NCBI GenBank assembly: GCA_944325685.1
Contig: CALVBC010000017.1
Coordinates: 1-64,000 of the forward strand
Direction of reading: 5' to 3'
From: an uncultured Erysipelotrichaceae bacterium
GTDB lineage: Bacteria; Bacillota_I; Bacilli_A; Erysipelotrichales; Erysipelotrichaceae
Length of the DNA stretch: 64,000 nucleotides
Below the pieces are notes generated by a model. The model was not told the DNA's origin. It saw nothing but the letters and a program-made list of their open reading frames with translations, and ran no database searches. Positions 8,341 through 32,305 of this stretch are shown here, one piece after another (positions within the stretch are counted from its first letter, which is position 1; each line of letters opens with the position of its first letter). A program made the translations under genes and the position numbers.

Positions 8341-8688
8341 GGGGATGTCTTGGAATCGACAAGTTTCAGCTGGGTATCGTAAGCAGTGGAGTGACTACCT
8401 AATAGTCAAACCTAAAATTAAACGCTAACAATAACAGATTAGCTTTCGCTGCTTAGTCGAATTATAGACTTGCGAAAACTTCTATAGGTGCTGTCCTGGC
8501 CACTTATAGTCGTAGTACACAGGATAGGAAAAGTGAGTTAGCCTTATCTCATCATCCGAAGACCGAAAAGGCAGATTCAGTATTAGGTCGCCTAAGCCAG
8601 GTGCTGTCTTACTAAGTTAGGATAAACTGTAGAAACCGATACGTGGGGCTACTCTTGGACACGGGTTCAAGTCCCGTCATCTCCACCA
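8341..8688 (+). ncRNA. ssrA: tmRNA
   Basis: 348 nt. The 5' end GGGGATGTCTTGGAATCGAC and the 3' end GTTCAAGTCCCGTCATCTCC-ACCA form the tRNA-like half (GGGGATG pairs with CATCTCC), with an encoded CCA. The tag reading frame near 8421-8453 gives ANNNRLAFAA followed by TAG, a normal proteolysis tag ending in AA. The intervening sequence has the expected pseudoknot-rich length. It rescues ribosomes stalled on mRNAs without stop codons. Confidence 0.96.
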
Positions 8689-17742: not shown

Positions 17743-19815
17743 TTATTCTTCGTCCAGATCGACTTTTGCTTCTTTGATGACTTTATCAGCCACTAATTGC
17801 GGCGCCGGTTCATAGCGATCGAATTCGATCACATAGGTACCACGACCTTGGGTCATCGACCTTAGTTCAGTCGCATACTTGGTCATCTCTGCCATCGGGA
17901 CTTCCGCATCGATCTTTTGATCACCATCATCGGTGAGTTCCATACCGACGATCATACCACGACGCTTATTGAAATCGCCGACGATCGTACCGGTATATTC
18001 CTCTGGTACTAAGACCGTGACCTTACCGATCGGTTCAAGGATGATCGGTTTAGCCTTTGGCATACCATCTTTATAGGCAAGTCTTGCGGCAGCCTTGAAG
18101 GCGATCTCCTTTGAATCGACTTCGTGATATGAGCCATCATACAAAGTGGCTTTGACACCGACGACCTTATAACCAGCTAAGACACCTTTTTCCATGCATT
18201 CCCTTAAGCCCTGTTCAACAGCTGGGAAGTATTGTTTAGGGACAGCACCACCAAAGACTTCTTCTTCAAAGACCATCTCTTCACTGTCGCATGGTTCAAA
18301 TCTGACCTTGACATGACCATATTGGCCAGCACCGCCGGATTGTTTCTTGTGTTTACCTTCCGCTTCGACTTTACCTCTGATGGTCTCACGGTATTGGACC
18401 TTCGGTTCTTTAGTCGTGATCTCGACCTTGTACTTGTTTTTGAGCTTGTTGACGACGACATCCACCGCTTGGTCACCCATCGCATAGAGGACTTGTTCGT
18501 GGGTCTCATTATTCCTTACAAAGCGCAATGACTTATCTTCTTCTAAGATCCGCTGTAGGGCAAATGACATCTTATCTTCATCAGCCTTGGTCTTAGGGGC
18601 GATCGCATATCCTAACATTGGACTAGGGAATTCGATCGCTTTATAGTGGACACCACTATCCTTTGTGGTCAATGTATCGTTAGTTTGTGTATATTGTAGT
18701 TTAACTACTGCACCGATATCACCGGTGAATAACTTACCGACAGCGATCTGGTTTTTGCCTTTGATGATATAGATCTGGTTGATCTTTTCCGCTTGATCTT
18801 TATTGGCATTGAAAATCTGCGAATCAGCGGTCAATACACCACTCATGACCTTGATATATGAGATCTTACCGACAAATGGGTCGACGATGGTCTTAAATAC
18901 CTGGGCACTGAAGACTTCGTTTTCATTGGTCTCTAAGATGACTTCCTTATCGTCTTTATCATAAGCGACTACTGTACCCTTTTCCGCATAGCTTGGGAAG
19001 TATTCGGTGATAAGATCTAATAACCTTTCGATACCGATACAGTTGATGGCACTACCACAATATACCGGCCTGATATCACCACTTCTAACACCGATCCTTA
19101 AACCTTTAGCTAATTCACCTTCATCGAATTCTTCACCCGAGAAGAACTTCTCCATCAGTTCATCATCGGTCATAGCGATCGCTTCAGCGATCTGGTTATA
19201 GTATTCTTCAACTTCGGCTTTATATGCATCTGGTACTTCTTTGGCGTTATCGTGGTCAGAATATAACCAAGCTTTCTTACGTAAGATGTTGATCGAACCA
19301 ACGACCTTGCCATTTTCGACCATCGGTAGTTCAAATGGGATAACGGACTTGCCGAATTTGTCTCTTAGTTCTGTATAGGTCTTATCAAACGATGCATTCT
19401 CATCATCGATCTTGTTGATGAAAAAGATCGTTGGCATCTTCGCTTTAGTGACCATCTTGTAGGCTTTTTCGGTACCTGATTGGATACCATCTTTAGCTGA
19501 TACGACGATGACCGCACTATCACCTACGGAAAAACCACTAGCTAATTCGCCTTCAAAGTCGAGATAGCCTGGGACATCGATGAAGTTGATCTTCTTGTTG
19601 CGCCATTCACATGGTGCGATCGCGCAAAAGACCGACATCCCTCTTTTGATCTCTTCCGGATCAAAGTCGACAGTGCTGTTGCCATCTTTAGCTGAGCCCA
19701 TCCGCTCGATGGCTTTAGTAAAGTACTCACTAGCTTCTACAAGCGTTGATTTACCCGCTTGTGAGTGCCCAAGCAAAATGACGTTACGAATATCGTTTGC
19801 TAAATAATCTCTCAT
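17743..19815 (-). CDS. Elongation factor G paralogue (EF-G2-like GTPase)
   Basis: 690 aa, full EF-G domain order. The G1 loop is GHSQAGKST instead of the GHIDAGKTT of canonical EF-G; G3 is DVPGY and G4 NKID. Domain IV (GGAGQYGHVKVRFEP) and domain V (GRGTYVIEFDRYEPAP) are intact. The divergent P-loop and the absence of rpsL/rpsG neighbours mark it as a paralogue, not the housekeeping factor. Related paralogues, including ribosomal-protection proteins, act on the ribosome as GTPases. It is downstream of the ankyrin gene (16-bp gap) in an operon with a translated leader and attenuator (20528-20695), which suggests it is induced when translation is perturbed. That link is an inference. Confidence 0.9.
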   Translation of the reverse strand: MRDYLANDIRNVILLGHSQAGKSTLVEASEYFTKAIERMGSAKDGNSTVDFDPEEIKRGMSVFCAIAPCEWRNKKINFIDVPGYLDFEGELASGFSVGDSAVIVVSAKDGIQSGTEKAYKMVTKAKMPTIFFINKIDDENASFDKTYTELRDKFGKSVIPFELPMVENGKVVGSINILRKKAWLYSDHDNAKEVPDAYKAEVEEYYNQIAEAIAMTDDELMEKFFSGEEFDEGELAKGLRIGVRSGDIRPVYCGSAINCIGIERLLDLITEYFPSYAEKGTVVAYDKDDKEVILETNENEVFSAQVFKTIVDPFVGKISYIKVMSGVLTADSQIFNANKDQAEKINQIYIIKGKNQIAVGKLFTGDIGAVVKLQYTQTNDTLTTKDSGVHYKAIEFPSPMLGYAIAPKTKADEDKMSFALQRILEEDKSLRFVRNNETHEQVLYAMGDQAVDVVVNKLKNKYKVEITTKEPKVQYRETIRGKVEAEGKHKKQSGGAGQYGHVKVRFEPCDSEEMVFEEEVFGGAVPKQYFPAVEQGLRECMEKGVLAGYKVVGVKATLYDGSYHEVDSKEIAFKAAARLAYKDGMPKAKPIILEPIGKVTVLVPEEYTGTIVGDFNKRRGMIVGMELTDDGDQKIDAEVPMAEMTKYATELRSMTQGRGTYVIEFDRYEPAPQLVADKVIKEAKVDLDEE

Positions 19816-19831
19816 TTCAAACTACCCCTTC

Positions 19832-20503
19832 CTACTTCAAATAACCCTTTAGTTCATCAAAACATTCTGTCCTGACATAGTGGATAGCTTTATTACCTTC
19901 ATTATCCATGACATCTTTATCCGCGCCACGGTTTAATAAGTAGATGACAAGATCTGAATAACCACCATAACTAGCTCTCATTAGGCATGTACAACCGTTG
20001 TTGTCCTGTTTATTGACATCAGCGCCTTGAGCCATCAAATAGTGGATGACATCGACCTTAAACGCAAGGACAGCCTCCATCAAAGCTGTACGGCCTTTAT
20101 TGTCTTGGGCATCAACTCTTGCACCCTTTTCAACTAGATATTCACATACTTCTAAGTTGCCTAAGAAAGCAGCACGCATCAAAGCTGTACGACCATTGTT
20201 GTCATGCGAATTGACATCAGCCCCTGCCTCTACTAACATCTTACAGATATCTAAGCGGTCCTTTTTAGCCGCTCCCATCAAAGCTGTCTTATTATCTTTA
20301 TCACGCGCTCTGACATTTGCGCCGTTATCGATCAGTGTCGCAACGATATCCGTATAACCGCGCTTAGCGCTGCGCATAAGACCGGTACGGCCATCACCAT
20401 TAGCCATGTTGACATCAGCGCCCTTAGCGATCGTAGCACATACCTTAGCGAAGTCACCGCTAGCGCAGGCATCAAAGAATTCTTTATTTACCGTTTGATC
20501 CAT
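19832..20503 (-). CDS. Ankyrin-repeat protein
   Basis: 223 aa made almost entirely of ankyrin repeats: six or so 33-residue units with the pattern DNNGRTALMRAAFLGNLEVC and EYLVEKGARVDAQD. There is no signal peptide or membrane segment, so it is cytosolic and probably a protein-protein interaction module. Start: ATG 20503 preceded by AAAGGAGGAAT. It is the first structural gene of the operon with the EF-G paralogue and lies just after the leader terminator. The partner may be the EF-G paralogue or the ribosome, which is a guess from gene order. Confidence 0.9.
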   Translation of the reverse strand: MDQTVNKEFFDACASGDFAKVCATIAKGADVNMANGDGRTGLMRSAKRGYTDIVATLIDNGANVRARDKDNKTALMGAAKKDRLDICKMLVEAGADVNSHDNNGRTALMRAAFLGNLEVCEYLVEKGARVDAQDNKGRTALMEAVLAFKVDVIHYLMAQGADVNKQDNNGCTCLMRASYGGYSDLVIYLLNRGADKDVMDNEGNKAIHYVRTECFDELKGYLK

Positions 20504-20527
20504 GATTTATTCCTCCTTTAAGTAAAT

Positions 20528-20552
20528 AAAAAGGCGAACACATAAATTCACC
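20528..20552 (-). terminator. Leader terminator (attenuator) of the ankyrin/EF-G2 operon
   Basis: GGTGAA and TTCGCC (one G-T pair) form a 6-bp stem with an 8-nt loop and are followed by TTTTT. The stem begins immediately after the leader-peptide stop codon and ends about 10 nt before the ankyrin ribosome-binding site, so readthrough is required for expression. Confidence 0.7.
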
Positions 20553-20642
20553 CTAAAAAACGATTTTGCACATGGAAACATCAGCTACAAGTGTAGCGAC
20601 TGGTACCCTTAAGACAATGTTTTGTTGATGATCCCTTTTCAT
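20553..20642 (-). CDS. Leader peptide, 29 aa
   Basis: ATG at 20642 is preceded by AGAGG at 8 nt, a good ribosome-binding site about 18 nt after the predicted transcription start. The frame encodes 29 residues, beginning MKRDHQQNIVLRVPVA and ending in SMCKIVF, and stops with TAG at 20553-20555, directly at the base of the terminator stem. A hairpin over codons 16-20 (CTACA/TGTAG) could pair alternatively. The layout matches translated leaders of ribosome-protection and ABC-F genes, in which ribosome position decides termination. The sequence is not one I recognise. Confidence 0.6.
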   Translation of the reverse strand: MKRDHQQNIVLRVPVATLVADVSMCKIVF

Positions 20643-20666
20643 ATTGATACCTCTGTTTCTGTCTCT

Positions 20667-20695
20667 AGTGTAAACGCTTAGAACTGAAAAATCAA
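20667..20695 (-). promoter_or_regulatory. Promoter of the ankyrin/EF-G2 operon
   Basis: On the minus strand TTGATT (20695-20690), 17 bp, TACACT (20672-20667). The predicted start is near 20660, giving a leader of about 155 nt before the ankyrin start codon. Confidence 0.65.
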
Positions 20696-22255: not shown

Positions 22256-24106
22256 CTATTTTTTATCCACCTTCTTTTTCTTGTGAGGTTTTTGTACCTT
22301 GGCACTGAAGATGATACCCGCAAATGGCGCAAGATCGATCGTGATACTGTGCTTAAAGCCATGGCGCTTACGTCTTTTCGCCTTTACAGGTTCAAAATTG
22401 CACATATTGCAACCACTGTAGATGTCCTTTTCACTGTTCATGATCTCGGTATACGTGCCACCATATGGCACCCCGATATCGTAGCCATGATATGAGATCG
22501 GCATCATATTGAGGACGACGACCAAGACCTCTTTTTCATCTTGGCGGTAATAGCTGAAGATGCTTTGGGCGTTATTGTTGACATCGATCCACTTGAAATA
22601 GTGCCAATCATAATCATCGCGATAAAGACATGGATGATTCTTGTATATGAGTGACATATCCTTGAAGAAACGATGGAAAGAATCGTGTTGTGGATAACCT
22701 AATAGGTCCCAATCCATCTGTTTCTTCTCATCGAATTCCCTAAATTGAGCGATCTCATTGCCCATGAAGTTGAGCTTTTTACCAGGATGGGTGAACATGT
22801 AGACAAAAAGGTTACGACATAAGTGGAACTTCTCTTCATAGGTGCCAAACATCTTATCGACGATCGTACCTTTAGAGTGCACGACTTCATCATGCGATAA
22901 AGGCAATAAGAACTTCTCATTGTAGAAATAAGCCATCGAGAAGGTCATCAAGTCGTGATGATACTTACGATACTCGTGGTCCATCTTATAGTAGCGTAGT
23001 GTGTCATTCATCCAACCGAGGTCCCACTTATAGTCAAAGCCAAGACCATCCCATTTGGTCTCAACGGTGACTTTAGGATAATCGGTTGAATCCTCCGCAA
23101 TAAGCATGACATCCTTATGCCTTTTCTTGATCGTATCATTTAAGTCTCTTATGAATTTGAGACCTTCGATATTCTCACCTAAGTCACGATTGCCTTTGTG
23201 ATAGATAAAATGGGATACCGCATCAAAGCGAAGACCATCGATATGATATCGCGATAAGTAGAAATCAGCACTTGATTTTAAGAAAGATCTAACAGGGGCA
23301 CTATTCAAGTTGAAATAGTAAGTCCCCCATTCTGAGCTTTGTAAATGCGCTTCAGGATATTCAAACATCGGTCTAAAATCGTAGTTCCTTAGACCCCAAT
23401 CATCAGGCACAAAGTGGACATAGACGACATCTAGGATGACGCCGATATCATTCTTGTGACACTCATCGATGAACTCCATGAGATCATATGGCGTCCCGTA
23501 TCGCGATGTCGCACTAAAGAACCCTGATGATTGATAACCCCATGATCCATCAAATGGATGCTCAAAGACCGGCATGAGCTCGATATGAGTAAAACCATTC
23601 TCCTTCACATAAGGGATCAAAGTATCCTTTAAGTGTCGATAGGTATTTAACTCTTCACTATTCTCATTCATGAAGCCATTGATATGGACTTCATAGATAT
23701 TGACTGGATCAGCGTAACTAAAATGACGACTTTTTAGGTAGTCTTTATCTTGCCATTTGTAGTAGTCAAGATCATACATGACCGAGGCATTGCCTGGTCT
23801 TTTCTCCCCATAGTAGGCAAAAGGATCGATCTTGTCATGGTATGTGTTTTTATCCCTATAGATCCTAAAGCGATACAGGTAGTAAGGATCCATATCCTCG
23901 ATGACCACTTCATAAACACCTCGATCATCGATCTTTTCCATCGGATAAGGCTTGTAGTCGTTATAGTTAGTTATCAGTTCGACCTTATAGGCACTTTCGA
24001 CCCATACAGTGAACTTCGTCCCTTTCTTCGCTCTGTGACAGCCAAATAGCTTGTATGCTTCACTATCAAGTCCAGCGAAGAAGAGATCAAAACGTTGATC
24101 TTTCAT
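22256..24106 (-). CDS. glgB: 1,4-alpha-glucan branching enzyme
   Basis: 616 aa, GH13. The N-terminal CBM48 domain (FGCHRAKKGTKFTVWVESA) precedes the catalytic barrel with DGLRFDAVSHFIYH (nucleophile Asp), LIAEDSTDYPKVT (acid Glu) and LPLSHDEVVHSKG (third Asp). It makes alpha-1,6 branches in glycogen. It lacks the extra N-terminal N1 domain of some long forms and ends with a basic tail (KVQKPHKKKKVDKK). Last gene of the glycogen operon, 4 bp after glgA. Confidence 0.95.
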   Translation of the reverse strand: MKDQRFDLFFAGLDSEAYKLFGCHRAKKGTKFTVWVESAYKVELITNYNDYKPYPMEKIDDRGVYEVVIEDMDPYYLYRFRIYRDKNTYHDKIDPFAYYGEKRPGNASVMYDLDYYKWQDKDYLKSRHFSYADPVNIYEVHINGFMNENSEELNTYRHLKDTLIPYVKENGFTHIELMPVFEHPFDGSWGYQSSGFFSATSRYGTPYDLMEFIDECHKNDIGVILDVVYVHFVPDDWGLRNYDFRPMFEYPEAHLQSSEWGTYYFNLNSAPVRSFLKSSADFYLSRYHIDGLRFDAVSHFIYHKGNRDLGENIEGLKFIRDLNDTIKKRHKDVMLIAEDSTDYPKVTVETKWDGLGFDYKWDLGWMNDTLRYYKMDHEYRKYHHDLMTFSMAYFYNEKFLLPLSHDEVVHSKGTIVDKMFGTYEEKFHLCRNLFVYMFTHPGKKLNFMGNEIAQFREFDEKKQMDWDLLGYPQHDSFHRFFKDMSLIYKNHPCLYRDDYDWHYFKWIDVNNNAQSIFSYYRQDEKEVLVVVLNMMPISYHGYDIGVPYGGTYTEIMNSEKDIYSGCNMCNFEPVKAKRRKRHGFKHSITIDLAPFAGIIFSAKVQKPHKKKKVDKK

Positions 24107-24110
24107 AATA

Positions 24111-25553
24111 TCACTTATTTAAAGCCCTTTCATATACCTCTTCGTATTCCTTAGCGCTCTTAGCGAATGAAACATCGTATTTCATCGCATTCTTGATCAT
24201 CATCGACCAATCCTGCGGTCGATCATAATAGGTGTCATAGGCATAGTCAAAGACATGTTGCATGGCAAAGAGATCATATGGCCCAAAACTAAAACCACGA
24301 CCTTCTTTGGTATATTCGTTATATGGCTCAACGGTATCTCTTAATCCACCGGTCTCTCTGACAAGTGGCAAGGTACCATAGTGCATAGCGATGAGTTGTG
24401 AGATACCACATGGCTCAAACTTACTTGGCATAAGTAACATATCTAACCCTGCATATAGCTGATGAGCTAGCGCTTCATTATAGCCACAGTAATAGACGCA
24501 TCTTGTCTTGTATCTTTCTTCCATCATCTTTAGTTGATACTCGTATTTTGAATCACCAGTACCTAAGATCGCGATCTCACAATCCCTTTGCATCCAGTGA
24601 TCGATACTCGAGATGAGTAGATCGACGCCCTTTTGTGATGTGAGCCTTGAGATCATACCGACTAAGAAGGTATTAGGTCTTACCTGTAGTCCTAACATCT
24701 CTTGGACAGCTTCTTTATTAGCGCGCTTGCCTGCCTTCCAATTGCGCAGGTTATAGTTCATCCTGATATCAGGATCTTTATTAGGATCAAAAGTCGTCGT
24801 ATCGATACCATTGACGATACCATAGAGATCTCCACTGCGATATTGTAAGACGGCTTCTAGATTTTCGCCAAACTCCGGTGATTGGATCTCATAGGAATAG
24901 GTCCTTGATACCGTGGTCACGATGTCAGCGTAGACGATACCAGCCTTCATGAGATTGGCATCATCATTGAAGCGTAATGATCCATCTTCAAAATAGCGGT
25001 ATTCAAAACCGAAGAAGTCGAATAGGACCTTCTTATTGTAGACACCTTGGAAGGCAAGATTGTGGATCGTCAAGATGTGCTTGATATTGCGTATCCTTTC
25101 GATCGCATTATATCTGACCTTGCATAGAGCTGGTAAGATCGCCGTATGGTAGTCATGTTCGTGGCAGATATCAGGATAATAATCGCATTTGATCATCATC
25201 TCTAAGACGGCATTGTTGAATACCGCAAATCTGATCACATCGTCATTGTATCCATAGACCCCATCACGATAGAAATAAGTGTCATTCTCAATAAAGATAT
25301 ACTCTAAATTGTTGAGATAGAGGTTATAGATATTAGCCTCTTCGTGGATGATACCACTGTTGATGTAGATATGATCGACATAGCTCAGACGATCCATCCA
25401 CTTATCTTTGATCTGCTTTAATAGTGGCAATACGACCTTGACTTCATATTTAGTCGGATCTAAAGACTGTGGTAATGTCCCAACGACATCCGCTAGACCA
25501 CCGGTCTTCACAAAAGGCAATGACTCAAAAGCGACGAATAAGACACTTCTCAT
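24111..25553 (-). CDS. glgA: Glycogen synthase (ADP-glucose)
   Basis: 480 aa, GT5. The N-terminal KTGGLADVVGTLPQSL loop binds ADP-glucose; TIHNLAFQGVY, SRLTSQKGVDLL and PSKFEPCGISQLIAMHYGT are conserved GT5 motifs. It extends glycogen chains in the cytoplasm. Its start overlaps the glgD stop by 4 nt. Confidence 0.95.
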   Translation of the reverse strand: MRSVLFVAFESLPFVKTGGLADVVGTLPQSLDPTKYEVKVVLPLLKQIKDKWMDRLSYVDHIYINSGIIHEEANIYNLYLNNLEYIFIENDTYFYRDGVYGYNDDVIRFAVFNNAVLEMMIKCDYYPDICHEHDYHTAILPALCKVRYNAIERIRNIKHILTIHNLAFQGVYNKKVLFDFFGFEYRYFEDGSLRFNDDANLMKAGIVYADIVTTVSRTYSYEIQSPEFGENLEAVLQYRSGDLYGIVNGIDTTTFDPNKDPDIRMNYNLRNWKAGKRANKEAVQEMLGLQVRPNTFLVGMISRLTSQKGVDLLISSIDHWMQRDCEIAILGTGDSKYEYQLKMMEERYKTRCVYYCGYNEALAHQLYAGLDMLLMPSKFEPCGISQLIAMHYGTLPLVRETGGLRDTVEPYNEYTKEGRGFSFGPYDLFAMQHVFDYAYDTYYDRPQDWSMMIKNAMKYDVSFAKSAKEYEEVYERALNK

Positions 25554-26656
25554 ATCCTGTCCCTCCGTTTGACATAGATCGGTTCATCTTCCGTACCCTT
25601 TAATTCCTTGATATGGGTGATGATCGCATAGCGATCGATGACCGCATTTTTGATCTTGACGTTTTTATTGATCAAGGTACTTGGCATGATGACGGCATTT
25701 TCAATGACCGCGCCAGCCTTGATCACGACATTACGTCCGATGACGCTGTTGATGACGGTACCTTCGATCTCACAACCATTACCGATAAGAGATCCAGTGA
25801 CATTAGCACCTTGTTTATATAAGGTAGGTTGTGTATCGTTGGTCTTTGTATAGATCGGCCAATTATCGCTCACAAGATCATCTAAACGATCCATGAGTTC
25901 AAGATTGGCTTTATAGTAAGCTCTTAATGAATTGATACAGCTGACATAGCCCTTGTGTTGATATCCATATACCTTAAGGTCATTTAGACTGTCTGCCACT
26001 ACATCGCTGAGCCAGAATAAGCTTGATGTCATCTGTGCCTTTTGGATCAGTTCGATAAAGAGATTACGTGACATGATATAGCATTCAAGCGAGATATCAC
26101 GGTTTTTATACTTACCGATATTCTTACTCATACCGGTAACGCGTTTATCTTCACCGAATTCTAAGATATCACACATCGCAAAGGCATCCTTGGCATTATT
26201 GACCGATTGATACATGATCGTGATATCACCACCCATCTTCTCATGGTATTCAAGCATCTCATTGAAATCTTGGATATAGACAAAATGGCTCGGTGCGATG
26301 ACGACATAGTTCGCACTTGACTGCTCGATATATTCGATATTGGCTTTGAAGTTAGCGATATCGGTATTGTACAGTTCATTACTGACTGGATTCTCACCAT
26401 ATAAGATCGAGAACTTGCCCTTTTTACTATTGACGTTATAGTTAGTGCCTAAGATGTGCTCGATCGTTGAACGTGGACGATTCTTGATATAGATCTCGAT
26501 ATCATCGATATGACTGTTGGTCATATTGGAGATCATGAAGTCCAAGATCCTGTAACGACCTAAGAAGCTCGTTGCTGATGCTGGTCGATAGTCATCGACA
26601 CCTTCGACATGGACATTGGCTGGTTCTAGATTGACGATACCTAACATTTTATTCAT
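25550..26656 (-). CDS. glgD: Glucose-1-phosphate adenylyltransferase subunit GlgD
   Basis: 368 aa. It resembles GlgC (nucleotidyltransferase domain plus left-handed beta-helix, [16 protein letters not shown]) but lacks the GGxGxRL pyrophosphorylase loop: the N-terminus reads [20 protein letters not shown]. GlgD is the non-catalytic partner of GlgC in Bacillota and tunes its regulation. It overlaps glgC by 8 nt and glgA by 4 nt. Confidence 0.94.
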
Positions 26657-27809
26657 GATCTTTGCCCTCCGCTTTCTTGCTGACTAAAGCCTTCGTTACT
26701 AGAAGGATATTCTTACTGGTCTTACTGCCAAGTTTCATACGTGCTGGTACTCTGACATCATCCATGACGACACAACGGTTCAATACAGCCCCTTCACCGA
26801 TCCTAGCGCCATTCATGACGACGGTATCGGTGACCTTAGCTCCTTCTTCGACCTTTGAGCCGGTGAATAAGACCGACTTTGTGATCTCACCATCGACGAC
26901 ACAGCCTTGGGTGATATAAGCGGTATTGATCTTCGCATTTGGCCCGATGATCTGTGGGATGGCGTTATTGTCACCTGTATAGATCTTCCATGATGGATCA
27001 GATAGATCAAGGGTGTTATTATCTGATATCAGGTCCATATTAGCTTCCCATAAGCTATCGATAGTACCAACATCCTTCCAATAGCCCTTAAAGCGATATG
27101 CCTGTAGATTAAGGCCATCCTTTAAGTATGTCGGGATGATATCCTTACCAAAGTCATGATTGCTGTTAGGATCTTTTTCATCATCTTTAAGGTATTTTCT
27201 TAAAGTCTTGTAGGTGAAGATATAGATACCCATCGAAGCTAAGTCTGATTTTGGCTCTTTTGGTTTCTCTTCAAATTCGATGATCTTGTCATTTTCATCG
27301 GTATTCATGATGCCAAAGCGACTAGCCTCTTTCATCGGCACTTGTAAAACAGCGATCGTCGCATCAGCATTGGTCTCGATATGATGTTGGAGCATCTTTT
27401 CATAGTTCATCTTGTAGATGTGGTCACCAGATAAGACAAGGACATACTCAGCGTCTTCCTGGTCTAAGAAGTCGAGGTTTTGGGTGATCGCATCAGCTGT
27501 GCCCTGATATAGGCCTAAGCCAGTGACATCCTTTTCCCGTGGTGGCAAACAATAAACACCGCCACCTTCGACATCAAGGCCCCAAATGTGGTCTCTTGCG
27601 ATATATGAGTTCAATAAGACGGACTCATATTGGACTAAGACACCGACTGTGCTGATATTAGAGTTAGCACAGTTGGAAAGTGGGAAGTCGATGATCCGAT
27701 ACTTACCACCAAAATGCACTGCTGGTTTGGCCACTTTTTTGGTCAGATCGTAAAGTCTAGTACCTCTGCCCCCAGCAAGTATCATTGCTACCATTTTCTT
27801 TTGTTTCAT
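26649..27809 (-). CDS. glgC: Glucose-1-phosphate adenylyltransferase, catalytic subunit
   Basis: 386 aa. [20 protein letters not shown] is the catalytic nucleotide loop; [27 protein letters not shown] and [17 protein letters not shown] complete the active site, and a beta-helix follows. It makes ADP-glucose for GlgA and is usually the controlled step. A -10 (TATAAT, 27843-27848) and a cre-like sequence lie in the 93-bp gap upstream, so it may be transcribed separately from glgP-pulA. Confidence 0.95.
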
Positions 27810-27842
27810 GAACTTGCACTCCTATTTATATTCCTATGGCTC

Positions 27843-27881
27843 TATTATAACCCTCTCATCAGAATTAAGAAAGCCTTTACA
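27843..27881 (-). promoter_or_regulatory. glgC promoter region with a cre-like site
   Basis: On the minus strand TATAAT (27848-27843) lies about 34 nt before the glgC ATG. TGTAAAGGCTTTCT (27881-27868) matches the CcpA consensus TGWAANCGNTNWCA except at two positions. Confidence 0.4.
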
Positions 27882-27902
27882 TTAAAAAGTTTGTAAATAA
27901 TT

Positions 27903-29915
27903 TCACACCTTCTCAAGGATGGCTAAAGACAAGCGTTCGATCGGCACTTCGGTGTCATTGAGCATGAAGTTGACAAAGTGGTCACGATCATAGCGAGCCA
28001 AATAAAAGCCTCTTAGATAATAGTGACGATCTTCTAGAGTCGGATTTATCAATATCTTGAGATTAGCGATATCATAGATCAAGATCTCATCATAAAAGGA
28101 TACATTGCCCATCGTCTTAACATCCTCAAGATCATCGAGCCTGAGACATGGATACCACTTGCGGATCTTGATCATATCGCGCAAGAAGTATGTGAGTTCG
28201 ATATATCGACTCCTTCTTGCATAGTCGATCATATTGACCTCATCGCTCGATGTATAGCTATTCTCATCACCTTTTTTAGTCCTGGCGAATTCTTGCCCAG
28301 CATGGATAAAAGGGATGCCCTGCGCTAAGATGACAAGCGCTAAAGATAGCTTGATCCTTAAGCGATCATCGACATCTTCTTCATTAGGATGGAATAATTT
28401 CATCGAATCATAAAAGGTCCGATTATCATGGCATTCTAAAAAGTTGATATGACTTAAAGGATCGACTCCCTTGTTGCATAAAGCCTTGACCATCGCTTCC
28501 TTGCGCCCTAGATCACCATTGATATAGCCAGGATATTCTTTACCAAAGGCATTGCCTCTTACTTCATCACGGAAAAAGCCATCAAAGTAAGCGACACCTT
28601 TGAACTTGTACCAATTGGATGCAGTCGCTCTTTTCTCTTTAGCTAAACCTTCACCCATCTCCCAGGCTTCCCCATAAAGCATGAAATACTCTTTTTTCGC
28701 TTTGGTGACTTCTTTGATGCGAGCTAAAGTATCGATATCGATAAAGTTCATTAAGTCAAACCTTAGACCATCGATATCAAAGATATCGATATATCTCTCA
28801 CACATCAAAGTTAGATATTCCCTTAAGAAATAACTTTCAGTCCTTAATTCATTACCACAAGATGTGCCATTTGCTAGATCGGTCTCATTACGATAGCGGA
28901 AGAAGTAATATGGTAAGATCTTATCTAAGCTAAAGGAATGAGCTTCAAAGACGTGATTAAAGACGACATCGAGGTTTACATATAACTCACATTTATGGAT
29001 ATAGTCAACGAGCTCTTGTAGTTCGGATATGCGCTTATAAGGGTCATAGACATCGGTCGTATAGGTCCCTTCAACGACATTATATTGGACAGGATCATAG
29101 CCCCAGTTATAGCCATGTGGCGCTTTTTCATCGATGCGGCCAAAGTCTAAGACGGGCATTAACTGGACATGGCTTATACCGAGGTCTTGGATATATTCGA
29201 TCCCGATCGGTTGACCATCGTATTTGACATGTTCTAGAAGGCCTTTAAAGGTCTTCTTATTTTTGACCTTTAAGCCCTTCATCGATGTGAGGTCACGGAT
29301 ACTGGCCTCATAGATGATCGCATCGGTATAGCGACTAATGATATTTTTCGGCTTGATCTTTTTTGATGTATAGCGCTTTTCATCGATGACGACAGAATAC
29401 TGGGCATTAGGTGAACTGCTATAGGCGAAAGGATCGATCGCATAGTTCACTTCACCACTTCTTTCGATCATATAGCGATAAGCCTTTTGATCAAGGTCTT
29501 TATCGACCTTTAATTCAAAAATGCCATGATCTACCTCATTCATCTTCAAACTGAGGTTCTCTATCTGTAACCTAACTTCATCAGCCATCGGTGCCCAGAT
29601 CCTAAAGGTCGTGGCCTTTTTGGTATAATGTGGTCCTAGTATATGTAGATCACATTTAAAGTAGTCATCAAATTCCTCCATCCTAGTGACATGACGATAG
29701 ATGACCGGGTATCTTTCCCCTTTATATAAAAAAGAATATCGCGCACTAAAGTCGATATCCTCTTTTAGATATACAAATGTTCGATTGAATCCTGCCTCTT
29801 CCTTGACGACTTCCAAAAGCTCACGATCTTTAAACAAATTAGCTTTGGTCAGATCGACATATTCGTGATAGATGCAGATCCTGCGGATGTCATCAAAGTA
29901 GGCTTCAAATCTCAT
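27903..29915 (-). CDS. pulA: Type I pullulanase (glycogen debranching)
   Basis: 670 aa, GH13_14. An N-terminal beta domain and CBM48 (TFRIWAPMADEVRLQI) precede the YNWGYDPVQYNVVEGTY signature of pullulanases, LDVVFNHV, DIDGLRFDLMNF (nucleophile), MLYGEAWEMGEG (acid) and FLECHDNRTFYD. No signal peptide, so it debranches internal glycogen. Its start overlaps the glgP stop by 4 nt. Confidence 0.93.
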   Translation of the reverse strand: MRFEAYFDDIRRICIYHEYVDLTKANLFKDRELLEVVKEEAGFNRTFVYLKEDIDFSARYSFLYKGERYPVIYRHVTRMEEFDDYFKCDLHILGPHYTKKATTFRIWAPMADEVRLQIENLSLKMNEVDHGIFELKVDKDLDQKAYRYMIERSGEVNYAIDPFAYSSSPNAQYSVVIDEKRYTSKKIKPKNIISRYTDAIIYEASIRDLTSMKGLKVKNKKTFKGLLEHVKYDGQPIGIEYIQDLGISHVQLMPVLDFGRIDEKAPHGYNWGYDPVQYNVVEGTYTTDVYDPYKRISELQELVDYIHKCELYVNLDVVFNHVFEAHSFSLDKILPYYFFRYRNETDLANGTSCGNELRTESYFLREYLTLMCERYIDIFDIDGLRFDLMNFIDIDTLARIKEVTKAKKEYFMLYGEAWEMGEGLAKEKRATASNWYKFKGVAYFDGFFRDEVRGNAFGKEYPGYINGDLGRKEAMVKALCNKGVDPLSHINFLECHDNRTFYDSMKLFHPNEEDVDDRLRIKLSLALVILAQGIPFIHAGQEFARTKKGDENSYTSSDEVNMIDYARRSRYIELTYFLRDMIKIRKWYPCLRLDDLEDVKTMGNVSFYDEILIYDIANLKILINPTLEDRHYYLRGFYLARYDRDHFVNFMLNDTEVPIERLSLAILEKV

Positions 29916-32305
29916 TTTTCGATCGGTTCGATATGCCAGATCTCTTCTGCATACTCCTTGATCGTTCTGTCACTTGAGAAGTATGCTGATCTTGCGATAT
30001 TCACTAAACACATTCTAGCAAATTTTCCCTTGTCTTCATAGATGTGATCGACATATTCATGTGCTTTGACATAACTGTCAAAGTCGGCAAGGACACAATA
30101 TTCATCACCCTTGGCGAGAAGATCATCATAGATGATCCTGAAATCATTGCGATCACTTGAGAAGGTCCCATCGATCAAACTATCGATGACGCGTTTTAGA
30201 CGACCATCATTTAGGTAGTATTGATATGGGTCATAGTGACGTTTTAATTCAACGACTTCATCGCTCCTTAATCCGAAGATCACAATATTGTCATCGCCGA
30301 CAAGCTCATGGATCTCGACATTAGCGCCATCCATCGTACCTAAAGTCACCGCACCATTCATCATGAACTTCATATTACCAGTACCACTAGCTTCTTTACC
30401 AGCAGTGGAGATCTGCTCAGAAATATCAGTGGCATTCATCAATTTCTCGGCGATCGTGACCCTGTAATTCGGGATAAAGACGACCTTGATATATTGACTT
30501 GCCCTTTCATCATTATCGATGACCCCAGCTACGGTATTGATGAGCTTGATGATCTTTTTCGCTAGGGCGTATTGACTAGCAGCCTTAGCGGCAAAGATAA
30601 AGGTGGTCTTAGGGATCGTGAAGTTTGGATCTTCTTTGATCCTGAAGTATAGGTAGATGACATGTAAGATGTCTAATAATTGACGCTTATAGGCATGAAG
30701 ACGCTTAGCGATCGTATCAAATTTAGAATCAGGATCGATATCGATATCGTAAGTCTTCTTTAGGTAGTCACTTAAGACGACCTTCCTTTGGTGTTTGACC
30801 TTTAAGAATTCCTCCTGGAGCTTTTGATCATCCACATGATCTAATAGCTTCCCTAATTCATTGATATCATCCTTAAAGTCAGGGCCGATATACTTCTCGA
30901 TCAAGTCGACAAGTTCAGGATTGGTATGTAGTAACCATCTACGATGGGTGATACCATTGGTCTTATTGTTGAATTTCTCTGGATATAAGGCATAGAAATC
31001 CTTGAATAGATCATTCTTTAAGATATCACTGTGTAATTTGGCGACACCATTGACTGAGAATGAACCGACGATCGATAGGTGAGCCATCCTGACGTTATTG
31101 TCACTAGAGATGATGCTTACCCTATTGAAGAAGTCACGGGAATGACCTGTACCGTAGACAAATTGAGCAAATTGCCTATCGAGCTCTTCGATGATGAGCC
31201 AGATACGTGGTAAGAGGTCTTTGATATATTCAACTGGCCACTTCTCTAAAGCCTCAGCCATGACTGTATGGTTGGTATAGGCAAAGGTATGAGTGACGAT
31301 ATATAAGGCATGATCCCAATCGTAGTGATAATCATCCATTAAAATACGCATGAGTTCAGGGATCGCTAAAGCAGGGTGCGTGTCATTTAGTTGGATGACG
31401 ACCTTTTCATGGAGATTAGATAGTGATCCATAGATGCGCATGTGTTCTCTTACGATCGCATGTAAGCCCGCTGATACAAAGAAGTACTCCTGCTTGATAC
31501 GAAGATATCTTCCTTCAACGGTCGAATCATCAGGATAGACATTGAGGCAGATATCATTGACCCTACCTAAGTACTTTCTAAAGTCACCTTCAAAGCGATC
31601 GCTTGGTTCTGCTGACCACATCCTTAAAGTATTGGTCTGCTTTTTATTTTCCCCGATGATCGGCATATCATATGGCACTGCGATGACATCTTGGGTATCG
31701 ACATGGGTGAAGACGAGTTTACCATGTTCGTCACGGTCGATATCCACATGGCCATAGTATCTGATCGTAACGGCTTTATCTGGCTTCCTTACTTCCCAAG
31801 GATTGCCGATCTTGAGCCATTGGTCAGGTACTTCGACCTGTTCATTGTTGATGATGAGTTGTTTGAATAAACCGTATTGATAGCGGATGGTATTACCATT
31901 GCCCGCATAGCCCATCGAAGCTAAAGAGTCTAAGAAACATGCAGCTAGTCTTCCTAAGCCACCATTACCAAGCCCAGCATCGCTTTCGACATCTTCAAGT
32001 TCGTTGATATCGATGCCAAGATCGGCTAAGCCCTCTTTGACCACACCATAAACACCTAAGTTCATGAGGTTGTTGCTTAGCATCCTACCCATCAAGAATT
32101 CAAGGGAGAAATAGTACATCTGCTTCGCATTTGTACCCCTTGTCTTCTCCTTGCTTTGACGCCATGATTCATTGATGGCACTTTCGGTCATCGAGGCTAA
32201 GACGATGTATTTTTCGGTCGTCGTCGATTCGGCAAGGCTTTTGCCGAATTGCGCTTCCATACTTGACTCTAGGTCTATCTTGAACTGTTCTTTATTTTCA
32301 AACAT
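29912..32305 (-). CDS. glgP: Glycogen/maltodextrin phosphorylase
   Basis: 797 aa, GT35. EASGTGNMKFMMNGAVTLGT contains the PLP-binding Lys, and DGANVEIHELVGDDNIVIFG is conserved; SLEFLMGRMLSNNLMN and GLGNGGLGRLAACFLDS mark the N-terminal half. It releases glucose-1-phosphate from glycogen. First gene of the glycogen operon, with an extended -10 (TGCTATAAT, 32334-32342) and a CAGGAG ribosome-binding site before the ATG. Confidence 0.96.
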   Translation of the reverse strand: MFENKEQFKIDLESSMEAQFGKSLAESTTTEKYIVLASMTESAINESWRQSKEKTRGTNAKQMYYFSLEFLMGRMLSNNLMNLGVYGVVKEGLADLGIDINELEDVESDAGLGNGGLGRLAACFLDSLASMGYAGNGNTIRYQYGLFKQLIINNEQVEVPDQWLKIGNPWEVRKPDKAVTIRYYGHVDIDRDEHGKLVFTHVDTQDVIAVPYDMPIIGENKKQTNTLRMWSAEPSDRFEGDFRKYLGRVNDICLNVYPDDSTVEGRYLRIKQEYFFVSAGLHAIVREHMRIYGSLSNLHEKVVIQLNDTHPALAIPELMRILMDDYHYDWDHALYIVTHTFAYTNHTVMAEALEKWPVEYIKDLLPRIWLIIEELDRQFAQFVYGTGHSRDFFNRVSIISSDNNVRMAHLSIVGSFSVNGVAKLHSDILKNDLFKDFYALYPEKFNNKTNGITHRRWLLHTNPELVDLIEKYIGPDFKDDINELGKLLDHVDDQKLQEEFLKVKHQRKVVLSDYLKKTYDIDIDPDSKFDTIAKRLHAYKRQLLDILHVIYLYFRIKEDPNFTIPKTTFIFAAKAASQYALAKKIIKLINTVAGVIDNDERASQYIKVVFIPNYRVTIAEKLMNATDISEQISTAGKEASGTGNMKFMMNGAVTLGTMDGANVEIHELVGDDNIVIFGLRSDEVVELKRHYDPYQYYLNDGRLKRVIDSLIDGTFSSDRNDFRIIYDDLLAKGDEYCVLADFDSYVKAHEYVDHIYEDKGKFARMCLVNIARSAYFSSDRTIKEYAEEIWHIEPIEK

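Follow-up and report, generated by a model that had tools for sequence, protein, structure and literature searches.

In the pyrBI and pyrE attenuators of E. coli, the leader frame reaches or enters an intrinsic terminator, antiterminators play no part, a trailing ribosome blocks folding of the hairpin, and a U-rich leader matters to the outcome. Distance effects and RNA polymerase pausing have been described for pyrBI, and in E. coli reporters a coupled ribosome repressed a terminator lying a few nucleotides after a stop codon almost completely, an effect that uncoupling abolished (PMC4824070). In Firmicutes, the vmlR, bmrCD and hflXr attenuators also consist of a leader ORF and an intrinsic terminator, and bmrCD has a layer of growth-phase promoter control by AbrB above its attenuator (PMC4191407). 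The tet(M) leader, too, is listed as a transcriptional attenuator, with an EF-G homologue as the controlled gene (PMC5418344). On the protein side the closest described case is EF-G2 of Bacteroides (fusA2), a dispensable EF-G paralogue that carbon limitation induces and glucose silences, and to which GTP-independent translation has been ascribed (PMC6989115, PMC10294740).

We analyzed an operon on the minus strand of a 64,000-nucleotide stretch of DNA from an Erysipelotrichaceae bacterium, the whole of which is referred to here as the window. The initial annotation of this locus had described a translated leader and an intrinsic terminator ahead of an ankyrin gene and an EF-G paralogue, and had proposed a ribosome-rescue or antibiotic-response system induced when ribosomes slow down in the leader. 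All of the parts named for the leader region were found on the minus strand when the sequence was read directly, in the order promoter, leader, terminator, ankyrin ribosome-binding site, ankyrin gene and EF-G paralogue. The leader and attenuator layout is confirmed, and the antibiotic reading of it is disfavoured by the results below. Three features absent from the initial annotation also emerged: a cre-type operator at the promoter, family-wide pairing of the leader ribosome-binding site with the leader 3' end, and the EF-G2-like placement of the EF-G. For comparison, upstream regions of the ankyrin/EF-G operon were collected from 128 relatives, the named ones being Erysipelotrichaceae metagenome-assembled genomes and isolates, and leader statistics were calculated on 70 representatives with leaders less than 70% identical. 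The -35 hexamer TTGATT (20690 to 20695) and the -10 hexamer TACACT (20667 to 20672) are separated by 17 nt in the window and lie where a promoter had been proposed. Sigma-70-like matches of this quality were not significant alone, with 17 found and 17.2 expected. Both hexamers and their spacing (16 to 17 nt) were kept in 8 genus members and across the family, most relatives having TACAAT or TATAAT as the -10, and it is on this conservation rather than on match quality alone that we call a promoter at the leader.

The leader has the Shine-Dalgarno sequence AGAGG (20650 to 20654), present as previously described and located 7 nt, not 8 nt, before the ATG; a leader Shine-Dalgarno with an ATG recurs in relatives. 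The leader ORF (20553 to 20642, MKRDHQQNIVLRVPVATLVADVSMCKIVF) has the 29 codons first assigned to it, its TAG overlaps the first bases of the terminator stem, and the ankyrin ribosome-binding site follows. The start codon in each relative was picked by its ribosome-binding site alone and success was defined as a frame ending -16 to +20 nt from the terminator stem. By this measure a ribosome-binding site and an ATG-started frame of about 29 codons stopped on the 5' arm of the terminator in 62 of the 70 divergent representatives, as compared to 17.3 +/- 3.4 of 70 for shuffles of the leader body and 6/70 and 9/70 for the two other frames. Several of the 8 misses were judged by eye to be wrong start choices. 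The median leader stop ended 2 nt into the stem, and the position of the stop was conserved more strongly than any other feature of this region.

The amino-acid sequence of the leader peptide was not conserved along with its frame. Across 14 independent pairs, which were selected at a leader identity of at least 70% so that absolute rates are biased low, the peptide gave pS 0.134 and pN 0.114 (binomial p 0.52), indicating no amino-acid constraint. The first codons of the ankyrin gene in the same 14 pairs gave pS 0.37 and pN 0.04, indicating strong purifying selection. Because pN was close to pS in the peptide while the geometry was conserved, we infer that selection keeps the frame and the stop and ignores the amino acids. 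A nucleotide motif, TTTTNNNCGGGGTT, was seen in the leaders of one clade (for example L097, L102 and L107), in 10 of the 70 representatives with 0.5 expected; it is possibly an RNA polymerase pause or an RNA element.

The terminator stem-loop (AGGGTGAATTTATGTGTTCGCCTT, 20531 to 20554, followed by TTTATTT) was identified by folding and by conservation. In the window the hairpin had a predicted energy of -10.1 kcal/mol (z -4.2), with 1 of 200 shuffles as good, and terminators scoring at least 22 were present in 107 of the 128 relatives, compared to 1.0 in shuffles. Both the leader frame and the hairpin are therefore conserved in relatives; the absence of such conservation had been named beforehand as grounds for dropping the attenuator. 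In the relatives, leader complementarity to the terminator 5' arm, as an antiterminator would require, was at chance (z 0.09), and Rfam had no family at the leader, the two snoRNA matches falling far under their gathering scores. A U-tract lies just 5' of the stem (20555 to 20560). T-runs of at least 4 were enriched in the leaders (138 versus 87 +/- 5.5) with a peak at -8 to -1 from the stem, an enrichment that is no more than suggestive with regard to NTP-sensitive RNA polymerase pausing. Three relatives (L036, L037 and L038) carry some 200 nt of extra DNA downstream of the conserved terminator, which is itself intact, and ahead of the ankyrin start.

Consensus folding within small clades recovered little besides the terminator, except in one clade of near-identical leaders, and pairing at the ribosome-binding sites was therefore assessed by shuffles. 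The leader ribosome-binding site was complementary to the 3' end of the leader across the family (z -1.51 +/- 0.20, t -7.7, n=65). Small or no pairing signals (z -0.30 to +0.22) were obtained for the ankyrin ribosome-binding site, the rest of the leader, upstream DNA and the reversed ribosome-binding site, and pairing between the terminator 3' region and the ankyrin ribosome-binding site gave z -0.35. No sequestration of the ankyrin ribosome-binding site by the leader was found. By complementarity, a candidate anti-RBS segment in the window (20575 to 20607) consists of GGTACC (20607-20602) and TGTTTC (20580-20575), with GGTATC (20651-20646) and GAAACA (20659-20654) as partners at the leader ribosome-binding site. 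The pairing was weak in the window alone (z -0.6) and stronger in the two closest relatives (z -2.2 and -2.9), and in many relatives the anti-RBS lay within about 30 nt of the stem. The predicted openness of the leader ribosome-binding site was 0.51 for the partly made leader, 0.31 for the full leader and 0.43 for a leader with its 3' part shuffled, and predicted accessibility was below the shuffled-3'-part value by 0.115 +/- 0.015.

A cre-like operator, TCTAAGCGTTTACA (20669 to 20682 on the minus strand; the plus strand reads TGTAAACGCTTAGA), overlaps the -10 hexamer and has one mismatch to TGWNANCGNTNWCA. The site was exact in several genus members, such as TGAGAGCGTTTACA and TGTGAGCGTTTACA. 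Across the 70 representatives it was exact in 16 and had one mismatch in 23 (39 in total), and 31 representatives had no site at up to one mismatch. Shuffles predicted 0.05 exact sites and about 0.5 with one mismatch (0.55 at up to one mismatch), and real DNA from the same loci predicted 0.64 exact and 1.5 at up to one mismatch. Twenty-six of the 39 sites overlapped the -10 and 9 overlapped the -35. A scan of the window itself returned 31 sites with 9.5 expected, mostly GATATC-like, an excess that we took for coding bias and so did not use as support; a stricter cre pattern occurs once in the whole genome. The genome also encodes an HPr kinase scoring above its cut-off and a LacI-family protein with a DNA-binding start nearly identical in sequence to that of solved CcpA. 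The best solved-structure matches of this protein were CcpA entries, and it scored 271 bits, under the NCBI ccpA cut-off of 442. The operon would be under CcpA-type catabolite control through the predicted cre site, and the place of the operator over the promoter points to carbon supply.

Downstream of the terminator, the ankyrin ribosome-binding site (AAAGGAGGA, 20511 to 20519, read directly) is unpaired with the leader. It precedes a gene for a 223-aa ankyrin-repeat protein (19832 to 20503, ATG at 20503; Pfam Ank_2 and related models), and 16 nt further on lies the gene for the EF-G paralogue, a 690-aa EF-G2-like protein (17743 to 19815). The two genes are co-oriented behind the leader and attenuator as had been noted, and the layout is conserved across the family; the EF-G gene was directly 3' of the ankyrin gene in the genomes compared, usually about 5-35 nt away. 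The simplest guess is that the ankyrin protein is a partner of the EF-G. The EF-G paralogue matched NCBIfam NF009381 with 887 bits (cut-off 583), fell far under the TetM-family cut-off (340 bits versus 775) and scored 569 bits with the Bacteroides EF-G2 family model, below the cut-off of 1000 bits. In a small tree of G domains it grouped with paralogues of other families in the class, the Bacteroides EF-G2 chain (7uvp/8dmf) and Thermus EF-G-2. This EF-G2 side was split from canonical EF-G and TetM/TetO with a support of 0.995, and the grouping with Bacteroides EF-G2 within it was weakly supported. PDB entries 7uvp and 8dmf are named TetQ, and their G domain fits the NCBIfam Bacteroides EF-G2 model best by a wide margin (297 bits versus 73 for TetQ).

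The initial annotation had pointed to an altered G1 loop in this EF-G, but this loop has the ordinary P-loop sequence GHSQAGKS. What stands out is a change in switch II, which reads DVPGY, the His after DxPG being replaced by Tyr84. The His was replaced in all 46 proteins read, 18/18 from the family and 28/28 from other families, and the canonical EF-G of the genome, in the str operon, retains DTPGH. In E. coli EF-G this His moderates GTP hydrolysis and Pi release (PMC4532990); its replacement alone would not prove loss of GTPase activity. The genome has a fusA end fragment followed by tuf on contig C6 (1-1960) and a second, complete fusA-tuf on contig C11 (2000-6500; L247 and L248), which may reflect either duplication in the assembly or a further copy of the str type.

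Within the Erysipelotrichaceae, 171 of 196 genomes, representing 56 of 60 genera, encode the ankyrin protein. The EF-G paralogue of other families in the class is 42-49% identical, and in the 8 other-family loci examined in full the ankyrin gene and the leader-terminator were absent upstream of it. We also took 400 nt upstream of the paralogue at 20 further other-family loci, in which the cre sites, where present, lay 24-99 nt before the EF-G start. Over all 28 loci a cre at up to one mismatch was found in 15, compared to 0.3 expected. As other families often have the cre yet have no ankyrin gene or leader, this distribution suggests that carbon control is the older feature and that the ankyrin gene and the attenuator appear to be an addition by the Erysipelotrichaceae.

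Together these data point to a catabolite-controlled alternative EF-G that is supplied at carbon or energy shortage and whose attenuator is read by ribosomes independently of the leader peptide, a reading to which we assign a probability of roughly 60%. In this model CcpA bound at the cre would shut the operon while preferred sugars are present. The transcript would start with the short translated leader whose stop lies on the 5' arm of the terminator, and the place of the ribosome at the time RNA polymerase makes the terminator would decide the outcome, with the sequence of the peptide irrelevant. A ribosome close behind RNA polymerase or on the stop codon would cover the 5' arm and leave the terminator unfolded (ON), and an untranslated leader or a lagging ribosome would allow it to fold (OFF). 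In the many relatives with pairing between the leader 3' end and the leader ribosome-binding site, untranslated leaders would be closed and the switch sharpened, and the U-tract before the stem may pause RNA polymerase. Expression would be favoured when RNA polymerase is slow relative to the ribosome, as at low NTP, or when the ribosome dwells at the stop. The EF-G without the switch-II His would, judging from its relationship and its regulation, act like the GTP-sparing Bacteroides EF-G2 and, by that analogy, sustain translation at GTP shortage.

We favour a nearby ribosome as the ON state because a terminator near a stop codon is repressed by a coupled ribosome (PMC4824070). RNA polymerase of B. 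subtilis is stated to outrun the ribosome (PMC9226507), and for this reason the default may be OFF and simple coupling weakened. Induction by ribosome slowing in the leader, as initially proposed, is possible, and the opposite sign is at least as likely (PMC4824070). Since the peptide is unconstrained and no antiterminator was detectable, a pyrBI/pyrE type of attenuator fits better than an antibiotic arrest peptide, and the leader likely works like pyrBI/pyrE, for which we claim no membership of a named attenuator family. The likeness observed is one of architecture, with the NTP signal a candidate here. Unlike pyrBI/pyrE, which serve pyrimidine genes, the attenuator here precedes an alternative EF-G operon that adds the pairing closing the leader ribosome-binding site and a cre operator. 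Like Bacteroides EF-G2, which belongs to the same broad clade, the EF-G here is a paralogue that lacks the switch-II His (DCPGS there), and it differs from that factor in having a CcpA-type repressor site in place of the activator BT4338; in the portions of the EF-G2 reports available to us, no ankyrin partner, leader or attenuator is described.

The alternative that survives best has a different signal, namely a ribosome lingering at the leader stop codon through slow termination, recycling or translocation when EF-G or GTP is limiting. The dwelling ribosome would mask both the anti-RBS and the terminator, and a shortage of EF-G would induce a spare EF-G in a feedback loop. EF-G acts in ribosome recycling, the step at the stop codon, and its role there would fall at this very point of the leader. 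The strong conservation of the stop position and the frequent closeness of the anti-RBS to the stem speak for this alternative, as a terminating ribosome would be expected over both. Sequence cannot separate such dwelling from the main reading, and slowing elongation with fusidic acid raised termination near a stop codon, as far as this work is cited in PMC4824070, which argues in the other direction. We consider dwell as the primary signal rather unlikely.

Far less probable is the proposal of the initial annotation, an antibiotic-responsive attenuator of the ermK/vmlR/hflXr kind in which a ribosome stalled by a drug within the leader would switch on a protective factor. A leader and an intrinsic terminator before a translation factor is indeed a shared layout (PMC6310831, PMC9226507), and TetM, another EF-G homologue, is likewise listed as attenuator-controlled (PMC5418344). 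However, vmlR and hflXr work through antiterminator and anti-antiterminator structures and drug-induced stalling, and we saw neither an antiterminator nor a sign of such stalling here, where the peptide has no amino-acid constraint. In the G-domain tree the EF-G paralogue sits with the EF-G2-like proteins, outside the TetM clade, and a catabolite operator on the promoter indicates carbon control. The suggested link to antibiotic ribosome-protection genes therefore found no support. Intergenic terminators are common, and the terminator could merely limit read-in from upstream with an accidental or vestigial leader frame; this is hard to credit with a conserved promoter upstream of the terminator and a frame, stop position and ribosome-binding site that recur in 62/70 relatives. 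The least credible explanation, amino-acid-specific attenuation of the trp or his leader type, in which shortage of one amino acid stalls the ribosome at certain codons, has a translated leader and a terminator in its favour and was rejected on leader codon composition, as the leader peptides shared no run of any single amino acid, Val as the most enriched residue (1.85-fold) was part of a general G-first-codon pattern with Asp, Asn and Ala, and no antiterminator was found.

EF-G spends GTP at every translocation step, and the sole worked-out case that we found of GTP saving by starving bacteria is Bacteroides EF-G2. A wider and rather speculative interpretation, which we hold more doubtful than the mechanism itself, is that the class-wide, catabolite-repressed EF-G without the switch-II His is an energy-saving starvation factor whose regulation is convergent with that of Bacteroides EF-G2. 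An ankyrin partner would have been acquired later in the Erysipelotrichaceae, along with a self-closing attenuator sensitive to the distance between ribosome and RNA polymerase, and the factor would be made only under carbon shortage combined with slowed gene expression. If this were true, low-energy translation factors would become a general theme among gut bacteria, since a second phylum would have a carbon-controlled paralogue throughout one of its classes. The leader would also be a clean natural sensor of ribosome position, with dozens of independent peptides and one geometry, and the set of leaders makes the rules for stop-to-stem distance, U-tract and closing of the ribosome-binding site directly testable. 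We found no earlier report of the class-wide carbon-controlled paralogue or of the leader in the open-access literature searched.

Two further features of the window were noted near the operon. A tmRNA gene (8341-8688, plus strand; Rfam RF00023, 102 bits) lies some 9 kb from the EF-G paralogue. Judging from the ORF translations, genes of glycogen metabolism cluster at 22256-32305 on the minus strand, immediately upstream of the DegV and YgjP genes lying ahead of the operon; the cluster contains a branching enzyme, a glycogen synthase, two ADP-glucose pyrophosphorylase-like genes, a pullulanase-like gene and a phosphorylase.
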